Positions 43,442 through 50,704 of a stretch of 64,000 nt of DNA are shown in pieces (position 1 is the stretch's first letter; each line of letters begins with the position of its first letter). Below the pieces are notes generated by a model. It searched no databases and was not told where the DNA came from. It saw only the letters and a list, made by a program, of their open reading frames with translations. The DNA is from Erythrobacter sp. KY5 (GTDB lineage: Bacteria; Pseudomonadota; Alphaproteobacteria; Sphingomonadales; Sphingomonadaceae): NCBI RefSeq assembly GCF_003264115.1, contig NZ_CP021912.1:1471001-1535000 (forward strand), written 5' to 3'. The translations under genes and the position numbers were made by a program.

Positions 43442-44293
43442 TCAGTTCTGGCGAAACGCCCAGCGCAGCGTCCGGCCCATGCCCCAGGTCGCCGCGCGGG
43501 CTGGCAGGGCAGTCAGGACCGGCCGCTGAAGGTTCAGCATGGATCGCGCAAAAGGCGGAAGCATGGCCACCGCTTCTGCGCCAAGCAAGGTCTGCAAGGC
43601 GGGCGGCGTGTTCTTTGGACGCTGATTGAGGACCAGCTGCGCAATCTCGCGGGCCTGTGGCGTTGCCCGCAGGTCGCCGCGAAGTTCGCGAAAAAGCGCA
43701 TCCGCCTCGCGCCGGGTCTCTGGCACCGGGTCTGCGCCAAGAGCGCGGGCGATGACTGCGATCTGGCGATAATATTCATCCTGCTGGGCACCGGGCATGT
43801 CGGGTCGAACATGGCGCAGATAGCCTGCGAGAAAACTCTGCGCTTCGGTTACGTGAACCCAGGCGAGCGTGCGCGGATTGGTCGCCTCGTAGCGGCTTCC
43901 ATCCGGCAGCGTGCCGCCAACTTTCGCGTGTATGCGATTGACGCGGTCTATGGCTTTCATCGCATCATCACGGTGCCCGAAGGTCGTTACCGCGATGAAC
44001 CGGGCGGTCCTCTGCAAGCGCCCGTGCATGTCCTCGCGAAAGTTGGAATGGTCGAGCACGCCTTGCAGCGCATGCGGGTGAAGCATTTGCAACAACAGCG
44101 CGCGAATTCCGCCGGTCATCATGCCGACGATATCGGCATGCACCATGCGGATCGGCGTATCCTTCTCGAACAGCGCGTCGTCAGATGGCGGGACCGGCTT
44201 TTGTCGGCTGGAAGAATCGTTGAAGGTGCTACGAACCTGCTCGACCAGTTTGAGGCGAAAGCGTTCAATCGGGATGTCGAGCGGGGAGGGCAT
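43442..44293 (-). CDS. Oxygenase MpaB-like (DUF2236) protein
   Basis: A 283-residue protein of the DUF2236 family. The typical features are an N-terminal ADIVGMMTGGIRALLLQMLHPHALQGVLDHS helix region, the FGHRDDAMKAIDRVNRIHAKVGG segment, and NPRTLAWVHVTEAQSFL with the conserved His. Fungal MpaB oxidatively cleaves a terpenoid chain, and latex-clearing protein is distantly related with haem bound to the His; activity here is unproven. It is oppositely oriented between the J-domain gene and cobS. Confidence 0.85.
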   Translation of the reverse strand: MPSPLDIPIERFRLKLVEQVRSTFNDSSSRQKPVPPSDDALFEKDTPIRMVHADIVGMMTGGIRALLLQMLHPHALQGVLDHSNFREDMHGRLQRTARFIAVTTFGHRDDAMKAIDRVNRIHAKVGGTLPDGSRYEATNPRTLAWVHVTEAQSFLAGYLRHVRPDMPGAQQDEYYRQIAVIARALGADPVPETRREADALFRELRGDLRATPQAREIAQLVLNQRPKNTPPALQTLLGAEAVAMLPPFARSMLNLQRPVLTALPARAATWGMGRTLRWAFRQN

Positions 44294-45500: not shown

Positions 45501-47636
45501 ATGGCGCTTTTCGAACGATTCTGGAAACGGTCAGGCAATCGAGATCCCCAGCGCGGGGATGCAGGCTACTACGCGCTTTACGAATCGCAGCGTCCTCTCG
45601 ACATCGATGATGAAGCGCCTCGACTTCGAGCGGCGGGTTCACCCGATTTCGCAGCCTGGGACGACCGTCTTTCGAGCATCGATGGCCACGTCGCTCGCGA
45701 AGAACGCAGGCGGCTTCCGTTCTGGACGAAGGATTACTGGCGCGCGCGTCGCAAGCGCTGGTGGGGCGTTCGCATTGTCGCAGCGATTTTCGCGGTGCTC
45801 ATTGTCCTGTTCGCATGGCTTGCAATCACCGCACCTCTTTCAAAGAGCCTAGAACCCATTGCTGCACCTCAGGTAACGCTGCTCGCCAGCGACGGGACAC
45901 CCATTGCGCGCAGCGGTGCGATGGTGGCGGAGCCGGTTGAGGTTGCAGACCTCCCCCCGCACGTGGTGCAGGCTTTCCTCGCGATTGAAGACCGGCGGTT
46001 CTATTCTCATTGGGGGATCGACCCGCGCGGCATCGCGCGCGCTGCTTGGACCGGGCGCGGCGGTGGGAGCACGATCACGCAGCAACTCGCCAAGTTCACC
46101 TTCCTCACGCCTGAGCAAAGCCTGTCGCGCAAAGCGCGCGAGGCGCTGATCGCACTGTGGCTGGAAGGATGGCTGACCAAGGACGAGATCCTGTCGCGCT
46201 ATCTTTCGAACGCCTATTTTGGAGACAACCAGTACGGGCTTCGCGCCGCATCGCTCCATTACTTCTATCGACAACCGGAAAACCTGCTGCCCCAGCAGGC
46301 GGCGATGCTCGCAGGGCTGCTTCAGGCGCCGTCGCGCTACGCGCCCTCCCATCATTATGACCGAGCGAAAGCGCGGATGGATCTGGTGGTGGGCGCGATG
46401 GTCGAGGAAGGGTATCTCACCGCGGCGCAGGCCGCATCGTTGTCTGATCCCAAGCTCGACTTGCGAACAACGAACGACCTGCCCACCGGGACTTATTTTG
46501 CAGACTGGGCCCTGCCTCTCGCGCGTGAGGGCATGGAAGCTGGGTACGAACGGCAGGTGATTGAAACCACGCTCGATGCGCAATTGCAGGCGCTGGCAGG
46601 CCGGGTTGTCAGCCGTGCAGGGCTTGGCGATGCTCAGGTCGCACTGGTCGCCATGCGCCCGTCGGGTGAAGTGGTCGCAATGGTTGGCGGCAAGGATTAT
46701 GCGCAAAGTCCGTTCAATCGCGCAACGCAGGCACGACGCCAGCCAGGGTCGACCTTCAAGCTGTTTGTTTATCTCGCCGCGCTGGAAGCTGGCTGGTCGC
46801 CAGAGGACAGGATCGCCAACACCGCCATCGAAGCGGGCTCCTACCGGCCCAAAAACGCGCGCGAGCGCTATTCGGAGACCATCACGTTGGAAGATGCCTT
46901 TGCCTCGTCCAGCAATGTCGCAGCGGTTCGGCTGTTCAATGAGGTCGGCAGTGAGCGAGTGATCAGCACGGCGCGTTCGCTCGGCGTCACGTCGAAACTG
47001 CCTGAGGGCGATCCAAGCCTGGCGCTTGGCACCTCGAGCATGACTTTGCTCGAACTGACGACCGCCTATGCCGGGGTGGCTGCCAATCGGTTCCCGGTCA
47101 GGGCCCGTGCGTTCGAGCAAGAGGAACAGGGCTGGTGGGAATGGCTCACCACTCCGATCGACAGCGCTTCGGACCGAACACACGAGGATATCGAGCGCAT
47201 GCTGCGCGCGGCAATCAACCGGGGGACGGGTGAGGCTGCGGAGCTGCCCATCGCGAATTATGGCAAAACCGGGACCACTCAGAATTACCGGGATGCCCTG
47301 TTCGTTGGTTATGCGGGAGACCTGGTTGTCGGCGTATGGGTCGGTAATGACGACAATTCGCCGCTCGATCGCGTGACCGGGGGCGGGCTCCCAGCGCGCA
47401 TCTGGAAGGACTTCATGCGCGGCGCTCTCAACCTGCCGGCACCGCGGCCAAGCGCCTCGCCCGACCCTGAAGGTCCGGTGCAGCCCTTCGATATCGGAGA
47501 AGGTGAGGAAATCCCGCTGGGTGAAGATGGCACGGTTCTGCGGTTCGAAGAGGACGGGGTCGTCCTCTCACAGGATGGCGTGCCGGTTGAGATTCGAATT
47601 GACGAAAACGGCTTCAACATCGACCCGATAGACTAG
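45501..47636 (+). CDS. Class A penicillin-binding protein (PBP1A-like)
   Basis: A 711-residue bifunctional peptidoglycan synthase. A basic cytoplasmic segment with one membrane helix (about 90-111) is followed by the GT51 glycosyltransferase with catalytic Glu163 in AIEDRRFYSHWGIDPRG and GGSTITQQLAK, and a transpeptidase domain with SxxK (Ser417, Lys420 in PGSTFK), SxN (SSN at 470-472) and KTG (589-591). The C-terminal acidic tail (IGEGEEIPLGEDG) is unusual but low-complexity. Stop codons of this gene and the convergent thioesterase overlap in CTAG. Confidence 0.95.
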   Translation: MALFERFWKRSGNRDPQRGDAGYYALYESQRPLDIDDEAPRLRAAGSPDFAAWDDRLSSIDGHVAREERRRLPFWTKDYWRARRKRWWGVRIVAAIFAVLIVLFAWLAITAPLSKSLEPIAAPQVTLLASDGTPIARSGAMVAEPVEVADLPPHVVQAFLAIEDRRFYSHWGIDPRGIARAAWTGRGGGSTITQQLAKFTFLTPEQSLSRKAREALIALWLEGWLTKDEILSRYLSNAYFGDNQYGLRAASLHYFYRQPENLLPQQAAMLAGLLQAPSRYAPSHHYDRAKARMDLVVGAMVEEGYLTAAQAASLSDPKLDLRTTNDLPTGTYFADWALPLAREGMEAGYERQVIETTLDAQLQALAGRVVSRAGLGDAQVALVAMRPSGEVVAMVGGKDYAQSPFNRATQARRQPGSTFKLFVYLAALEAGWSPEDRIANTAIEAGSYRPKNARERYSETITLEDAFASSSNVAAVRLFNEVGSERVISTARSLGVTSKLPEGDPSLALGTSSMTLLELTTAYAGVAANRFPVRARAFEQEEQGWWEWLTTPIDSASDRTHEDIERMLRAAINRGTGEAAELPIANYGKTGTTQNYRDALFVGYAGDLVVGVWVGNDDNSPLDRVTGGGLPARIWKDFMRGALNLPAPRPSASPDPEGPVQPFDIGEGEEIPLGEDGTVLRFEEDGVVLSQDGVPVEIRIDENGFNIDPID

Positions 47637-48037
47637 CCGGTCCCTGTTTCCGCCATCAGTATATTCATGACAGCGCTAGCAATCGGGCGGTCGCGATCGT
47701 CCTGCCATACCTCGACCGTCAAGTTGGCGTTTCGCCGACCGATCCGTGTGATGCGCCCCTTCGCGAAACTCGCCTGCGACTTACCGGCAGACAGGTACTG
47801 AACGGTGATATTGACCGGCTTCAGCTGTGCATCCCGGCCATCCTCCTGAAGCCGTGCGCGGAGCGCAGCGTAGCCGGCATTCTCCAGCAATCCTGCGGTC
47901 GCACCCCCGTGATAATGAGCAGGACGCCCTTCGACTGACGAACCGAAATCCACCGTCAGAACCGGAACGCCGTCTTCCATTGCGTGGAGTCTGATCCCGA
48001 GTGCGTTGGCATATGCAGGCAGTTCCATGTCACTCAT
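47633..48037 (-). CDS. PaaI-type hotdog thioesterase (second of pair)
   Basis: A 134-residue single-hotdog protein. EGRPAHYHGGATAGLLENAGYAAL and PVNITVQYLSAGKSQ follow the PaaI/YbgC-like pattern (acyl-CoA or phenylacetyl-CoA hydrolysis), with the active-site HGG. The start at MSDMELP overlaps the previous gene by 8 bases; MELP at 48028 is an alternative. It is co-transcribed with a paralogue-like thioesterase. Confidence 0.83.
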   Translation of the reverse strand: MSDMELPAYANALGIRLHAMEDGVPVLTVDFGSSVEGRPAHYHGGATAGLLENAGYAALRARLQEDGRDAQLKPVNITVQYLSAGKSQASFAKGRITRIGRRNANLTVEVWQDDRDRPIASAVMNILMAETGTG

Positions 48038-48542
48038 CGCCAGTCCCCGCTTCGCTGGCTTCACCTTGGCCGGTCACGATCTTGCGTGACCGGGGGTCCT
48101 TGCTCAGCGTCATGAAAACGCCTGCCATTGTCGCAAGCTGATCGTTGGCGTCGCCGTCGTGAGCGAACCCCCGAACAAAAGCGGCAGAGCGGGTGATGCG
48201 ATGGCATTCGACGCGCCCCCAGATCGCACTGCGTTCTCGCGAGGCGCGCTGGTAATCCACTCTCAGATCAAGCGTTGCAATGGGCATGAAAGCGCCTTTG
48301 GTCGTCCAGATTGCCATCCCGCTGGCCATGTCCATCAAGCTGATGACGGGACCAGATGCGAGCACCGCGCGGTCCGGTTCGCCGATCAGGTCCTCTCGCC
48401 AAGGCAGCTTGAGTTCGACCCAGTTGTCGCCGTGGGCGCTGTATTCTAGGCCCAGCCAGCCCGAATGACCATGCTGGAAAAACATCTTCCCCGCAGCCTC
48501 GACGTCGAAGCCTTGCGTCGGAGTCCGGCTTCTTTCGCTCAT
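48030..48542 (-). CDS. PaaI-type hotdog thioesterase (first of pair)
   Basis: A 170-residue hotdog protein with GHSGWLGLEYSAHGDNWVELKLPWREDLIGE, ASGPVISLMDMASGMAIW and a strand LDLRVDYQRASRE. The pair of adjacent, distantly similar hotdog genes could form a hetero-oligomer, which is inference. It diverges from the peptide cassette; 131 bases separate their start codons. Confidence 0.83.
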   Translation of the reverse strand: MSERSRTPTQGFDVEAAGKMFFQHGHSGWLGLEYSAHGDNWVELKLPWREDLIGEPDRAVLASGPVISLMDMASGMAIWTTKGAFMPIATLDLRVDYQRASRERSAIWGRVECHRITRSAAFVRGFAHDGDANDQLATMAGVFMTLSKDPRSRKIVTGQGEASEAGTGDE

Positions 48543-48574
48543 TTCCGCAAGTTTCTTTGAAATTTACTAATCAT

Positions 48575-48580
48575 TACAAT
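48575..48580 (+). promoter_or_regulatory. Possible -10 element for the peptide cassette
   Basis: TACAAT (five of six to TATAAT) lies in the AT-rich divergent region, about 94 bases before the peptide ATG. The -35 at the right distance (TTTCTT, 48552-48557) is poor, so this is only a suggestion. Confidence 0.3.
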
Positions 48581-48673
48581 CCTTTAATTTCACGCACCGG
48601 GAGTTTTCTTGCAGCCATCCATGTGCATCGGCGCTTCTCGCCCGGTGCGGGATCAGTAGCAAGGAGAAGTAAA

Positions 48674-48838
48674 ATGCCAAAGATCGAGCTGGCCAGTATT
48701 CCTGGCCTCGAAACAGCACAGGCGCTGTACGGAGCGGTCAGCGACAAGGTCGCGACCTACGACGATTCGATCATTTCACTCATGGTCTATGTCTACGATG
48801 TAGCGCCCCCGCCACCACCGCCGCCCGGCATCTTTTGA
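48674..48838 (+). CDS. 54-residue peptide with heptaproline-GIF C-terminus, putative modified-peptide precursor
   Basis: A small gene with a strong ribosome site (AAGGAG, 7 bases before ATG). The peptide begins MPKIELASIPGLETA, runs through an amphipathic leader-like part (QALYGAVSDKVATYDDS), then a hydrophobic SLMVYVYDV, and ends in seven prolines and GIF. It has no cysteine and no signal peptide. Seven consecutive prolines would stall ribosomes without EF-P, so the tail is probably selected for. It lies 22 bases ahead of two cupin-like genes on the same strand. I do not recognise the family; the layout (short acidic leader, odd C-terminal core, downstream oxygenase-like genes) suggests a ribosomally made peptide that is modified, but this is inference. 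The frame upstream of 48674 is a shadow. Confidence 0.7.
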   Translation: MPKIELASIPGLETAQALYGAVSDKVATYDDSIISLMVYVYDVAPPPPPPPGIF

Positions 48839-48860
48839 TCGCTACGGGATGGCTGAGTAG

Positions 48861-49817
48861 ATGATTGTTCATCCTGCCATAGCAAAGCTGCGGAGCGATC
48901 ACGCTTTGCAGCTTTGCGCCCGTGCCGAGATGACGTCGGCTCATGATGCCTGGCTTCAGCGCAGCGATGTTCGCGCTGTTGATCGCGACATCCGCAGCTA
49001 TTCCGAGGGACAGGCCTTGGAGGCATTACCGACGCTTGGCGGATTGATCGGCGACCTTGCGCGAGGAAAGGCGTTTGCGCATGGAATGATCGATCAGTTC
49101 GTCCCGGCATTGCGCAGCCAATCGCTCGGAGAAGTTCCTTTGCGGCATACTTCGACAGCCGGCTTTGCGCGAATGCAGCTGATGAAGCAGGGCGGGGTGG
49201 TGCTATCGCTTTGCGTGTACGAACCGGCAACGGCGAACCGCCAAGCCAACTGGGCCCAGTTTGCCGATTGCGAGCTGTGCGAACTGGTTTTGGCCGGTTC
49301 GGCGACTGGCCGGATGCACAGGATCGTTCACAACGGGTTGGGGCAAGGCGGCATCCGTTCAACAGACCTGAACGTGGGCGAGGGCAGTTTTCTTGCGCCA
49401 AAGCCTCGCGTCGAAGCGCGGCAATTCGAAGTGGTGCACCGTTCTTTGCTGGTGCTTCAGTTGACCCGCACGCGCCCCAATCCCCGCGCAACTCGCGAGC
49501 TGCGCCTAAGCGATGGCGCGCTGGTACGGGAGGTAAGCGCGGATCGGCGGGCGAGCGAGAAGATGATGGCGCTAGGTGTCCTGGGGGCGCTCGGCATGGA
49601 TCGCACAATCGATCCGATCACGGCATTTGCTCGCGATCTTGATCAGGACAAGCACGCGCGATGGGAAGCGGCGCGTCAGTTGCTGGCGCTGGATGGCGAG
49701 GCTGGCTGGCTGGTTCTCAATGAAATTGCACACAGACCTGAAGATCCTCTCGCCCAGCCTTCAAGATCGCTGATGGCCCAATTGCGCGAACAGCACGAAA
49801 TCCCGGAGGCACAGTGA
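48861..49817 (+). CDS. Uncharacterised cupin-like protein with helical C-terminal domain
   Basis: A 318-residue protein of no family I can name. The N-terminal 80 residues are helical (HPAIAKLRSDHALQLCARAEM). The middle (about 95-205) looks like a cupin or cupin-derived barrel: strands VVLSLCVYE, CELCELVLAGSATGRMHRIVHNG, the turn VGEGSFL and the strand SLLVLQLTR; His153 and His193 could be metal ligands, but the canonical cupin motifs are incomplete. After residue 225 a helical, HEAT-like segment follows (ASEKMMALGVLGALG, ARWEAARQLLALDGEAGW). It begins 22 bases after the peptide gene and its stop overlaps the next ATG (TGATG), so all three genes are probably one transcript. Confidence 0.65.
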   Translation: MIVHPAIAKLRSDHALQLCARAEMTSAHDAWLQRSDVRAVDRDIRSYSEGQALEALPTLGGLIGDLARGKAFAHGMIDQFVPALRSQSLGEVPLRHTSTAGFARMQLMKQGGVVLSLCVYEPATANRQANWAQFADCELCELVLAGSATGRMHRIVHNGLGQGGIRSTDLNVGEGSFLAPKPRVEARQFEVVHRSLLVLQLTRTRPNPRATRELRLSDGALVREVSADRRASEKMMALGVLGALGMDRTIDPITAFARDLDQDKHARWEAARQLLALDGEAGWLVLNEIAHRPEDPLAQPSRSLMAQLREQHEIPEAQ

Positions 49818-50704
49818 TGCCGCTGCTTTTTGATCTTGGCGAAGATGCCCCCTGTTCTCTTGCCGAAGCGGTCGAGGCTCTCGCCGCGATAGATTTCGAC
49901 CCTCGGGATGAAGGTGCGACGCTTGAAGCTGCTCGCTGGCTTAGGAGATTGAGCAGCAACCGCGAGTTCCTCGCAGACGTCCTTCTGGACCGCCTTGCCG
50001 GGCGGACTTTGGGTGAGATCGAAAGCGGGTACGGCCCGCAGGCTGTCGTACTTTCCCCGTTACGAGGGAGCATGTTTCTGCGCGCCAATATCTGGCCTGC
50101 CGAAAGCGATCTGAGCTTTCAGAACTCCGGCGCGAAGACGTTCGTCTACGGAGTGCCGCACGACCACAATTTCTCGTTTCTGACGACAGGATATCTCGGC
50201 CCCGGCTATCGAAGCGATTACTTCGAATACGATTATGACAAGGTTCGCGGCGTGCCCGGCGAAGAAGCGGGCCTGCGCTTCATCGAACGCAGCGCTCTCC
50301 ATGAGGGCAAGACCATACTTTACCGCGCACACACCGATGTGCACTCGCAATTGCCGCCCGAAAGCCTCTCGGTCTCGCTCAATGTCATGCATGTCGACCC
50401 GGCACAGTGCTGGCACGATCAATATGGCTTTGAACTCGAAAGTGGGACGATCACGCGCGTGCTCAGCCCCAACGCGACCGAGGTATTCCTGCGCACCGCC
50501 GTGGCGAGCGGATCTGAAATCGCGCTGGATTATGCTGAGTGGATAGGCCGCACCCATCCAAGCGACAGGTTGCGGCTTGCCAGCTTTGAGGCGCGCAGCG
50601 GCATTTCCTGCAATCGGCACGCGCTGTGGGCAGAGGCGGAACGCTCAGGGAGCCTTATGGTCTCGGCTGTCGCCAAACAGAAGCGCCAGGCAATCGAGGC
50701 TTAA
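49817..50704 (+). CDS. Uncharacterised cupin protein with thiol-dioxygenase-like histidine pattern
   Basis: A 295-residue protein. I start at the ATG at 49817 (GGAGG 7 bases upstream) rather than the GTG before it. A helical N-terminal part (about 1-75) is followed by a cupin-like core with PHDHNFSFLTTGYLGPG (His115, His117), FEYDYD (Glu137), then LYRAHTDVHSQLPPESLSVSLNVM (His172, His176). This H-x-H ... H-followed-by-ESxSVSLN arrangement resembles cysteine dioxygenase-type cupins, where three histidines hold Fe(II). Nothing in it looks like a transposase or a phage protein. It is the third gene of the peptide cassette; its stop overlaps the convergent ruvX stop within TTAA. Enzymatic activity is inferred only. 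Confidence 0.65.
   Translation: MPLLFDLGEDAPCSLAEAVEALAAIDFDPRDEGATLEAARWLRRLSSNREFLADVLLDRLAGRTLGEIESGYGPQAVVLSPLRGSMFLRANIWPAESDLSFQNSGAKTFVYGVPHDHNFSFLTTGYLGPGYRSDYFEYDYDKVRGVPGEEAGLRFIERSALHEGKTILYRAHTDVHSQLPPESLSVSLNVMHVDPAQCWHDQYGFELESGTITRVLSPNATEVFLRTAVASGSEIALDYAEWIGRTHPSDRLRLASFEARSGISCNRHALWAEAERSGSLMVSAVAKQKRQAIEA

Follow-up and report, generated by a model that had tools for sequence, protein, structure and literature searches.

The window analysed here is a 64,000-nucleotide stretch of the Erythrobacter sp. KY5 genome (contig NZ_CP021912.1, positions 1,471,001 to 1,535,000), taken from a 3.31 Mb chromosome assembled as a single contig (genome G000). Our subject is a cassette of three genes in this window. 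They form a tight operon, on the forward strand, between positions 48674 and 50704, and encode, in order, a short peptide and two larger proteins that we call P2 and P3 (Table 1). The peptide open reading frame is preceded by AGCAAGGAGAAGTAAA. The peptide has no cysteine and ends in APPPPPPPGIF. All of the layout described in the original prediction was confirmed in the sequence. A 54-residue gene with an AAGGAG site, ending in seven prolines and GIF, is followed after 22 bases by a gene for a 318-residue protein and, via a TGATG overlap at position 49817, by one for a 295-residue protein. The closest named match of P3, at 83% identity, is from Erythrobacter sp. NAP1, in which L032 is a close copy.

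Table 1. Features of the cassette and its flank, in window coordinates
Feature	Position	Strand	Description	Basis
Ribosome-binding site, AAGGAG	48661-48666	+	Strong; ahead of the peptide start	Sequence
Precursor-like peptide gene P0001, 54 aa	48674-48838	+		Sequence, conservation, pN/pS, leader-only profile
P0001, subdivision			Leader-like, residues 1-29; hydrophobic V/I/Y segment, 30-42; variable polyproline tail, 43-54	
P2, 318 aa	48861-49817	+	Predicted CDO-fold pseudo-cupin, no conserved metal motif; C-terminal helical HEAT-like domain	
P3 (P0003), 295 aa	49817-50704	+	Predicted CDO-fold cupin, likely oxygenase; H115-x-H117...H176 plus C-terminal helical domain	
Hotdog thioesterase pair (4HBT)	47633-48064 and 48030-48542	-	Divergent from, and adjoining, the cassette	

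Linkage and distribution of the cassette

The three genes occur together, in the same order, at 52 of the 54 loci first collected, and so not by chance (the window is counted twice among the 52, as L001 and L002). At the two exceptions, L017 and L052, the contig end falls within P3. Note that, in the genome carrying L017 (G180), the peptide and P2 are located at the opposite end of the contig. At L023 and L051 the P2 frame is open only in part. Among 199 genomes of the same bacterial family, P3 was found in 74 and P2 in 71, every one of them P3-positive. A profile of the peptide matched 61 genomes, 60 of which also have P3. Fisher tests on this co-occurrence, which ignore shared ancestry, gave p values of 5e-51 and 5e-36. 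The three P3-positive genomes with no P2 match are G124, G155 (divergent protein in the P2 position) and G191 (cassette truncated). In the 14 P3-positive genomes that the close peptide profile did not match, candidate peptides lie at the same position. A precursor gene stably linked to genes for modifying enzymes is expected of ribosomally synthesised and post-translationally modified peptides (RiPPs), and such linkage was found here.

Nine of ten cassette-negative relatives have an empty site, with the thioesterase and ruvX adjacent and neither peptide nor P3 present. At the tenth, L131, ruvX is absent from the vicinity, and two of the ten gave chance-level P2 matches (E values of 0.12 and 0.32). 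These relatives were hand-picked from 86 P3-negative, thioesterase-positive genomes. One genome high among the 86, G018, was left out of the ten and inspected later. Its locus (L135) has the sole peptide match in any P3-negative genome: a relic between the thioesterase and ruvX, with an unrecognised leader and without P2 or P3. Given the nine empty sites, the whole cassette looks to have been gained or lost as a unit. It is rare beyond the family, with five occurrences in a class sample of 385 (one outside the family) and ten in a phylum sample of 299 (one outside the class). The class search with a diverse profile gave one additional match, of 41 residues (E = 8.8e-4), that we took as chance.

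Some copies are decaying or duplicated. In G191 (L072), the P3 match spans only residues 180-295 and P2 is in pieces. In G162 (L136 and L103), P2 is split by approximately 39 kb of inserted DNA, and P3 is still open. Here, the peptide and the start of P2 lie at 1746390-1747316 and the end of P2 runs from 1786226. By eye, a tail-fibre-like open reading frame is present at the far side of the insert, which is perhaps a prophage. G027 and G087 each carry a second, divergent cassette (L074 and L076) that adjoins a gene judged by eye to be yidC-like.

Leader and core regions of the peptide

Across 155 pairs of peptide genes, the ratio of non-synonymous to synonymous differences (pN/pS) was 0.33 for residues 1-29, 0.20 for residues 30-42 and 0.55 for the tail, with pS, at 0.61-0.67, being near saturation. 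Because of these ratios, we conclude that the peptide is translated and under purifying selection. The consensus of 50 peptides is MxLPKIDLxSLPGLETAxGLFGSxSxxxAxxDDRIVxIMVYVYDTxPPxxxx. In distant relatives, the N-terminal motif is kept and the remainder is replaced, as in MKKKIDIAAIPELNTSVGMHGSVRQQEVGGPLCLGVVVAVLLAL (L078), MGLPAIDIDALPLLDTAVGLFGSLVSESASSGPSVFEIAVTIALIIHD (L071) and MTLQDIPEFPELVGNYGTMASEGANMLAGDDIWIIIAIYVFEHN (L112).

A profile of the leader alone, made from the first 24 residues and trained on other loci, was used to search 14,540 stop-to-stop segments from 51 loci. Ranks 1-34 are peptide open reading frames from 34 different loci, and rank 35 is a chance match. Peptides of some further loci rank lower, mixed with chance matches. 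All but one of the 34 are within the set distance; the other, at L072, falls outside because its P3 is truncated. Every one of the 34 continues, after the leader, into a variable V/I-rich segment. All 34 remainders contain a 9-residue stretch with a mean hydropathy of at least 2.1, compared to 4.4% of 20,000 length-matched C-terminal stretches drawn at random. Note that the distant-locus peptides were first chosen using a hydropathy filter, and so are biased on hydrophobicity, but the leader-only search and its control are not. Since the leader is recognised alone, and a variable continuation follows, the peptide has leader-plus-core anatomy; the conserved leader and separable core of a RiPP precursor are both present. 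Together with the linkage and selection described above, this bears out the earlier view of the peptide as a real, conserved and precursor-like gene linked to both proteins.

Conversely, the original placing of the core in the polyproline ending is not supported. A PPPP run is found in just 11 of 99 peptides from across the family, and the tail has the highest pN/pS of the three segments, making it the least conserved. Because the tail is local, we rejected PPPPPPPGIF as the core. In 81 of the 99 peptides, tyrosine is present among the 25 C-terminal residues. Cysteine is present in ten, mostly directly after a GG-like site, and absent from 89. Hence, the claim that a thiol substrate is excluded was right for this genome but does not extend to the whole family. 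At eight loci (L073, L075, L078, L079, L083, L107, L108 and L110), EVGG or EVAG is followed by two residues, then cysteine and a hydrophobic core. The sequences of this subfamily suggest that maturation occurs at another site and possibly involves thiol chemistry. We also considered a transmembrane peptide. This is unlikely, the hydrophobic stretch of the window peptide being, by eye, just 9-12 residues or so.

Predicted folds and metal site of P2 and P3

Structure models of P3 and P2 were aligned to Foldseek's top 1000 chains. For both, thiol dioxygenases were the best structural matches. P3 is thus predicted to have the thiol-dioxygenase (CDO-type cupin) fold, as is P2, which agrees with the earlier description of both proteins as cupin-like. 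Sequence searches were less revealing. Both proteins fall below Pfam and NCBIfam cut-offs. The CDO_I model gave no match, at E of 1 or below, for P0003 or any of the 36 members of a diverse P3 set; as a control, two genuine CDO_I proteins did match it. Pfam matches in the P3 set were weak (HEAT_2 in 8 of 36, best E 0.00091), and phmmer and hmmsearch comparisons of P3 with PDB sequences gave no cupin.

In two P3 alignments, the motif residues H115, H117 and H176 are present in every row (48 of 48 and 36 of 36). The original prediction added H172 to this pattern. It is present in P3, but is kept in only 28 of 36 diverse homologues. Since H172 is not conserved, the metal ligands are likely to be H115, H117 and H176, judging from the alignments. 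The catalytic triad of CDO is Ser-His-Tyr. When P3 was aligned with two CDO_I proteins using hhalign, S187-x-N189-x-M191 fell at the S-x-H-x-Y positions, with a probability of only 4%. An Asn and a Met at the triad His and Tyr positions, if this 4% alignment is right, would fit a reaction that is not a thiol oxidation. R89, suggested from residue spacing as the counterpart of CDO Arg60, was unsupported by the residue alignment. We class P3 as a CDO-fold protein and not as a thiol dioxygenase. It shares the cupin fold and HxH...H motif with thiol dioxygenases (cysteine dioxygenase, CDO, PF05995; 3-mercaptopropionate dioxygenase; and ADO and plant cysteine oxidases). Unlike these, it carries an additional helical, HEAT-like domain at its C-terminus, is not matched by CDO_I and, from the weak (4%) alignment, has apparently replaced triad residues. 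The cassette also differs in having a peptide gene, a metal-less paralogue and a putative substrate that is mostly cysteine-free.

P2 is a remote paralogue of P3 without a conserved HxH...H motif. The relationship was apparent only with diverse profiles; close P3 and P2 profiles did not match each other. We had considered P2 as a second enzyme, catalysis by one or both cupins having been originally proposed. With no conserved His pair in its alignments, this is unlikely for P2.

Proposed function and alternatives

We propose that the genes form a minimal RiPP-like cassette, in which P3 oxidises the core of the precursor and the pseudo-enzyme P2 is its partner. Our estimate of the probability is roughly 0.62. 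The small gene would encode the precursor. Its N-terminal half (consensus IDLxSLPGLETAxGLFGS) would be the recognition leader and its variable, V/I-rich and often tyrosine-containing C-terminal half the core. The most probable role for P2 is leader binding and presentation of the core, which P3 would oxidise with O2 at a mononuclear metal site formed by its three His residues. The helical parts of both proteins perhaps also hold the precursor. Of this scheme, the co-occurrence, the selection on the peptide, its division into leader and core, the predicted folds and the three-His motif, conserved in P3 and missing from P2, are shown by the present data. That P3 acts on the peptide, what P2 does, which metal is used, how the core is oxidised, that the leader is removed and where the product goes are inferred.

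Several observations weigh against it. Modification of the peptide has never been observed. No core residue is fixed across the family, which leaves none to be singled out as the target. In Erythrobacter, pN/pS is lower for the core than for the leader (0.20 versus 0.33); stronger conservation of the core is an unusual pattern in a diversifying RiPP. L066 lacks a recognisable precursor, and the candidate peptides of L067, L068 and L074 carry divergent leaders. HxH occurs somewhere in 6 of 46 and 10 of 36 P2 rows, though not as a conserved column pair. Finally, the window cassette includes neither a protease nor an exporter, and 14 of 30 cassette-bearing genomes, chosen to span diversity, have no C39 peptidase match. 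We class the cassette as RiPP-like by anatomy, rather than as a proven RiPP.

Note that a leader protease or exporter, or both, is common in RiPP clusters but not universal. The reported lack of either beside the cassette holds in the window, the one exception being a signal peptidase encoded on the opposite strand at a distance of 1.7 kb, but does not hold for all relatives. At L068, in G155, a C39-peptidase ABC exporter and HlyD adjoin the cassette and, by eye, the peptide leader is bacteriocin-like. C39 peptidases were found in 16 of the 30 genomes, adjacent to the cassette only in G155. Aside from C39, neighbours of other loci were inspected by eye, with no search for other proteases or exporters in relatives. 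The window genome has two C39 matches, both unlinked to the cassette, and the window peptide has no GG; the double-glycine arrangement is possibly present at L068. With 14 genomes lacking C39, we rejected C39 export as a general step.

Alternatively, the cassette may not encode a RiPP. P2 and P3 would form a complex whose substrate is a small molecule, and the peptide would be a small component of it, with a structural or regulatory role, docked into one of the two proteins through its hydrophobic C-terminal strand. The strong conservation of the Erythrobacter core segment (pN/pS of 0.20) would fit, as would the window having no dedicated exporter or protease and the 14 genomes without C39. 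So would the CDO fold matches, enzymes of this fold normally acting on small thiols. However, it is the N-terminal half that stays recognisable and the C-terminal half that varies between lineages, while a docked C-terminus would need the reverse. The C39 exporter beside the peptide in G155 also counts against a subunit, and we consider this explanation unlikely. A bacteriocin-like product, exported after modification by a C39 transporter that cuts at a GG-type site, is more doubtful still. It would account for the exporter and HlyD at L068, and for EVGG or EVAG ahead of the hydrophobic core in L073, L075, L078, L079, L081, L083, L107, L108 and L110. Yet the C39-free genomes include G084 (L073), G186 (L078 and L079) and G074 (L110), all with EVGG peptides, and neither the window peptide, without GG, nor its unlinked C39 genes fit. 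That P3 is a true thiol dioxygenase acting on peptide cysteines, with cysteine-free peptides being degenerate, agrees with its fold and with the ten cysteine-containing peptides, but is highly improbable given that 89 of 99, including that of the window, are cysteine-free, that the cysteine-free Erythrobacter type is under purifying selection, and that the weak alignment puts N189 and M191 at the His and Tyr positions of the CDO triad.

Two known systems resemble the proposed RiPP-like cassette in part. Crocagin biosynthesis involves the precursor CgnA, the dioxygenase CgnC and the homologous peptide-binding proteins CgnB and CgnE; CgnE bound no iron in the authors' test, CgnB and CgnE resemble aminopeptidases, and a protease and predicted transport proteins complete the cluster (PMC10070186). 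Both systems have a short precursor, one oxygenase and a homologous protein pair. The crocagin pair consists of two partners, whereas in our cassette it is partner and enzyme that are homologous, and the models of P2 and P3 are of cupins rather than of aminopeptidase-like proteins. The Tyr-Trp C-terminal end of crocagin-type precursors occurs in none of the 99 peptides. Given this, and the cupin models, we do not consider the cassette to be crocagin-type. The biphenomycin-type pbs cluster has the cupin-like, JmjC-related hydroxylase PbsQ, the main enzyme PbsC (an MNIO) with its RRE partner PbsD, a B12-radical SAM enzyme and an arginase (PMC12257519). It likewise combines a cupin hydroxylase acting on a ribosomal peptide with a pairing of enzyme and partner protein. 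It is not the same system, PbsQ being JmjC-related and the main enzyme an MNIO.

A literature search of partial coverage (titles and starts of abstracts, bioRxiv excluded) returned no description of such a system. Its kind, a ribosomal peptide with a modifying enzyme, is already known, and the cassette looks like an undescribed route to an oxidised ribosomal peptide. We know of no other CDO-fold enzyme and pseudo-enzyme pair and, to our knowledge, oxidation of cysteine-free ribosomal peptides is not a reaction type of the thiol-dioxygenase fold. There is a real chance that the cassette is a new RiPP class. Tentatively, at slightly less than even odds, this class would comprise a three-His oxygenase acting on cysteine-free, V/I/Tyr-rich peptides and a metal-less paralogue that binds the substrate. 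Should P3 prove to modify the peptide, a peptide-oxidising branch independent of cysteine would be added to the thiol-dioxygenase fold, and the pseudo-enzyme partner would be a new way of holding a leader. Since the window peptide has no family match in Pfam, NCBIfam or PHROGs, mining via known RiPP enzymes could overlook such cassettes.

The thioesterase pair flanks the cassette at 22 of 23 genome-contig loci and at 22 of 50 further scanned loci, 13 of the latter 22 having no ruvX match. The thioesterase query matched 145 of the 199 genomes, though weaker matches may be other thioesterases. Because 86 of the matched genomes are P3-negative, we kept the thioesterases out of the system. Elsewhere in the window, at 43442-44293 on the reverse strand, a protein with an MpaB/Lcp-type (rubber oxygenase) catalytic domain adjoins cobS.
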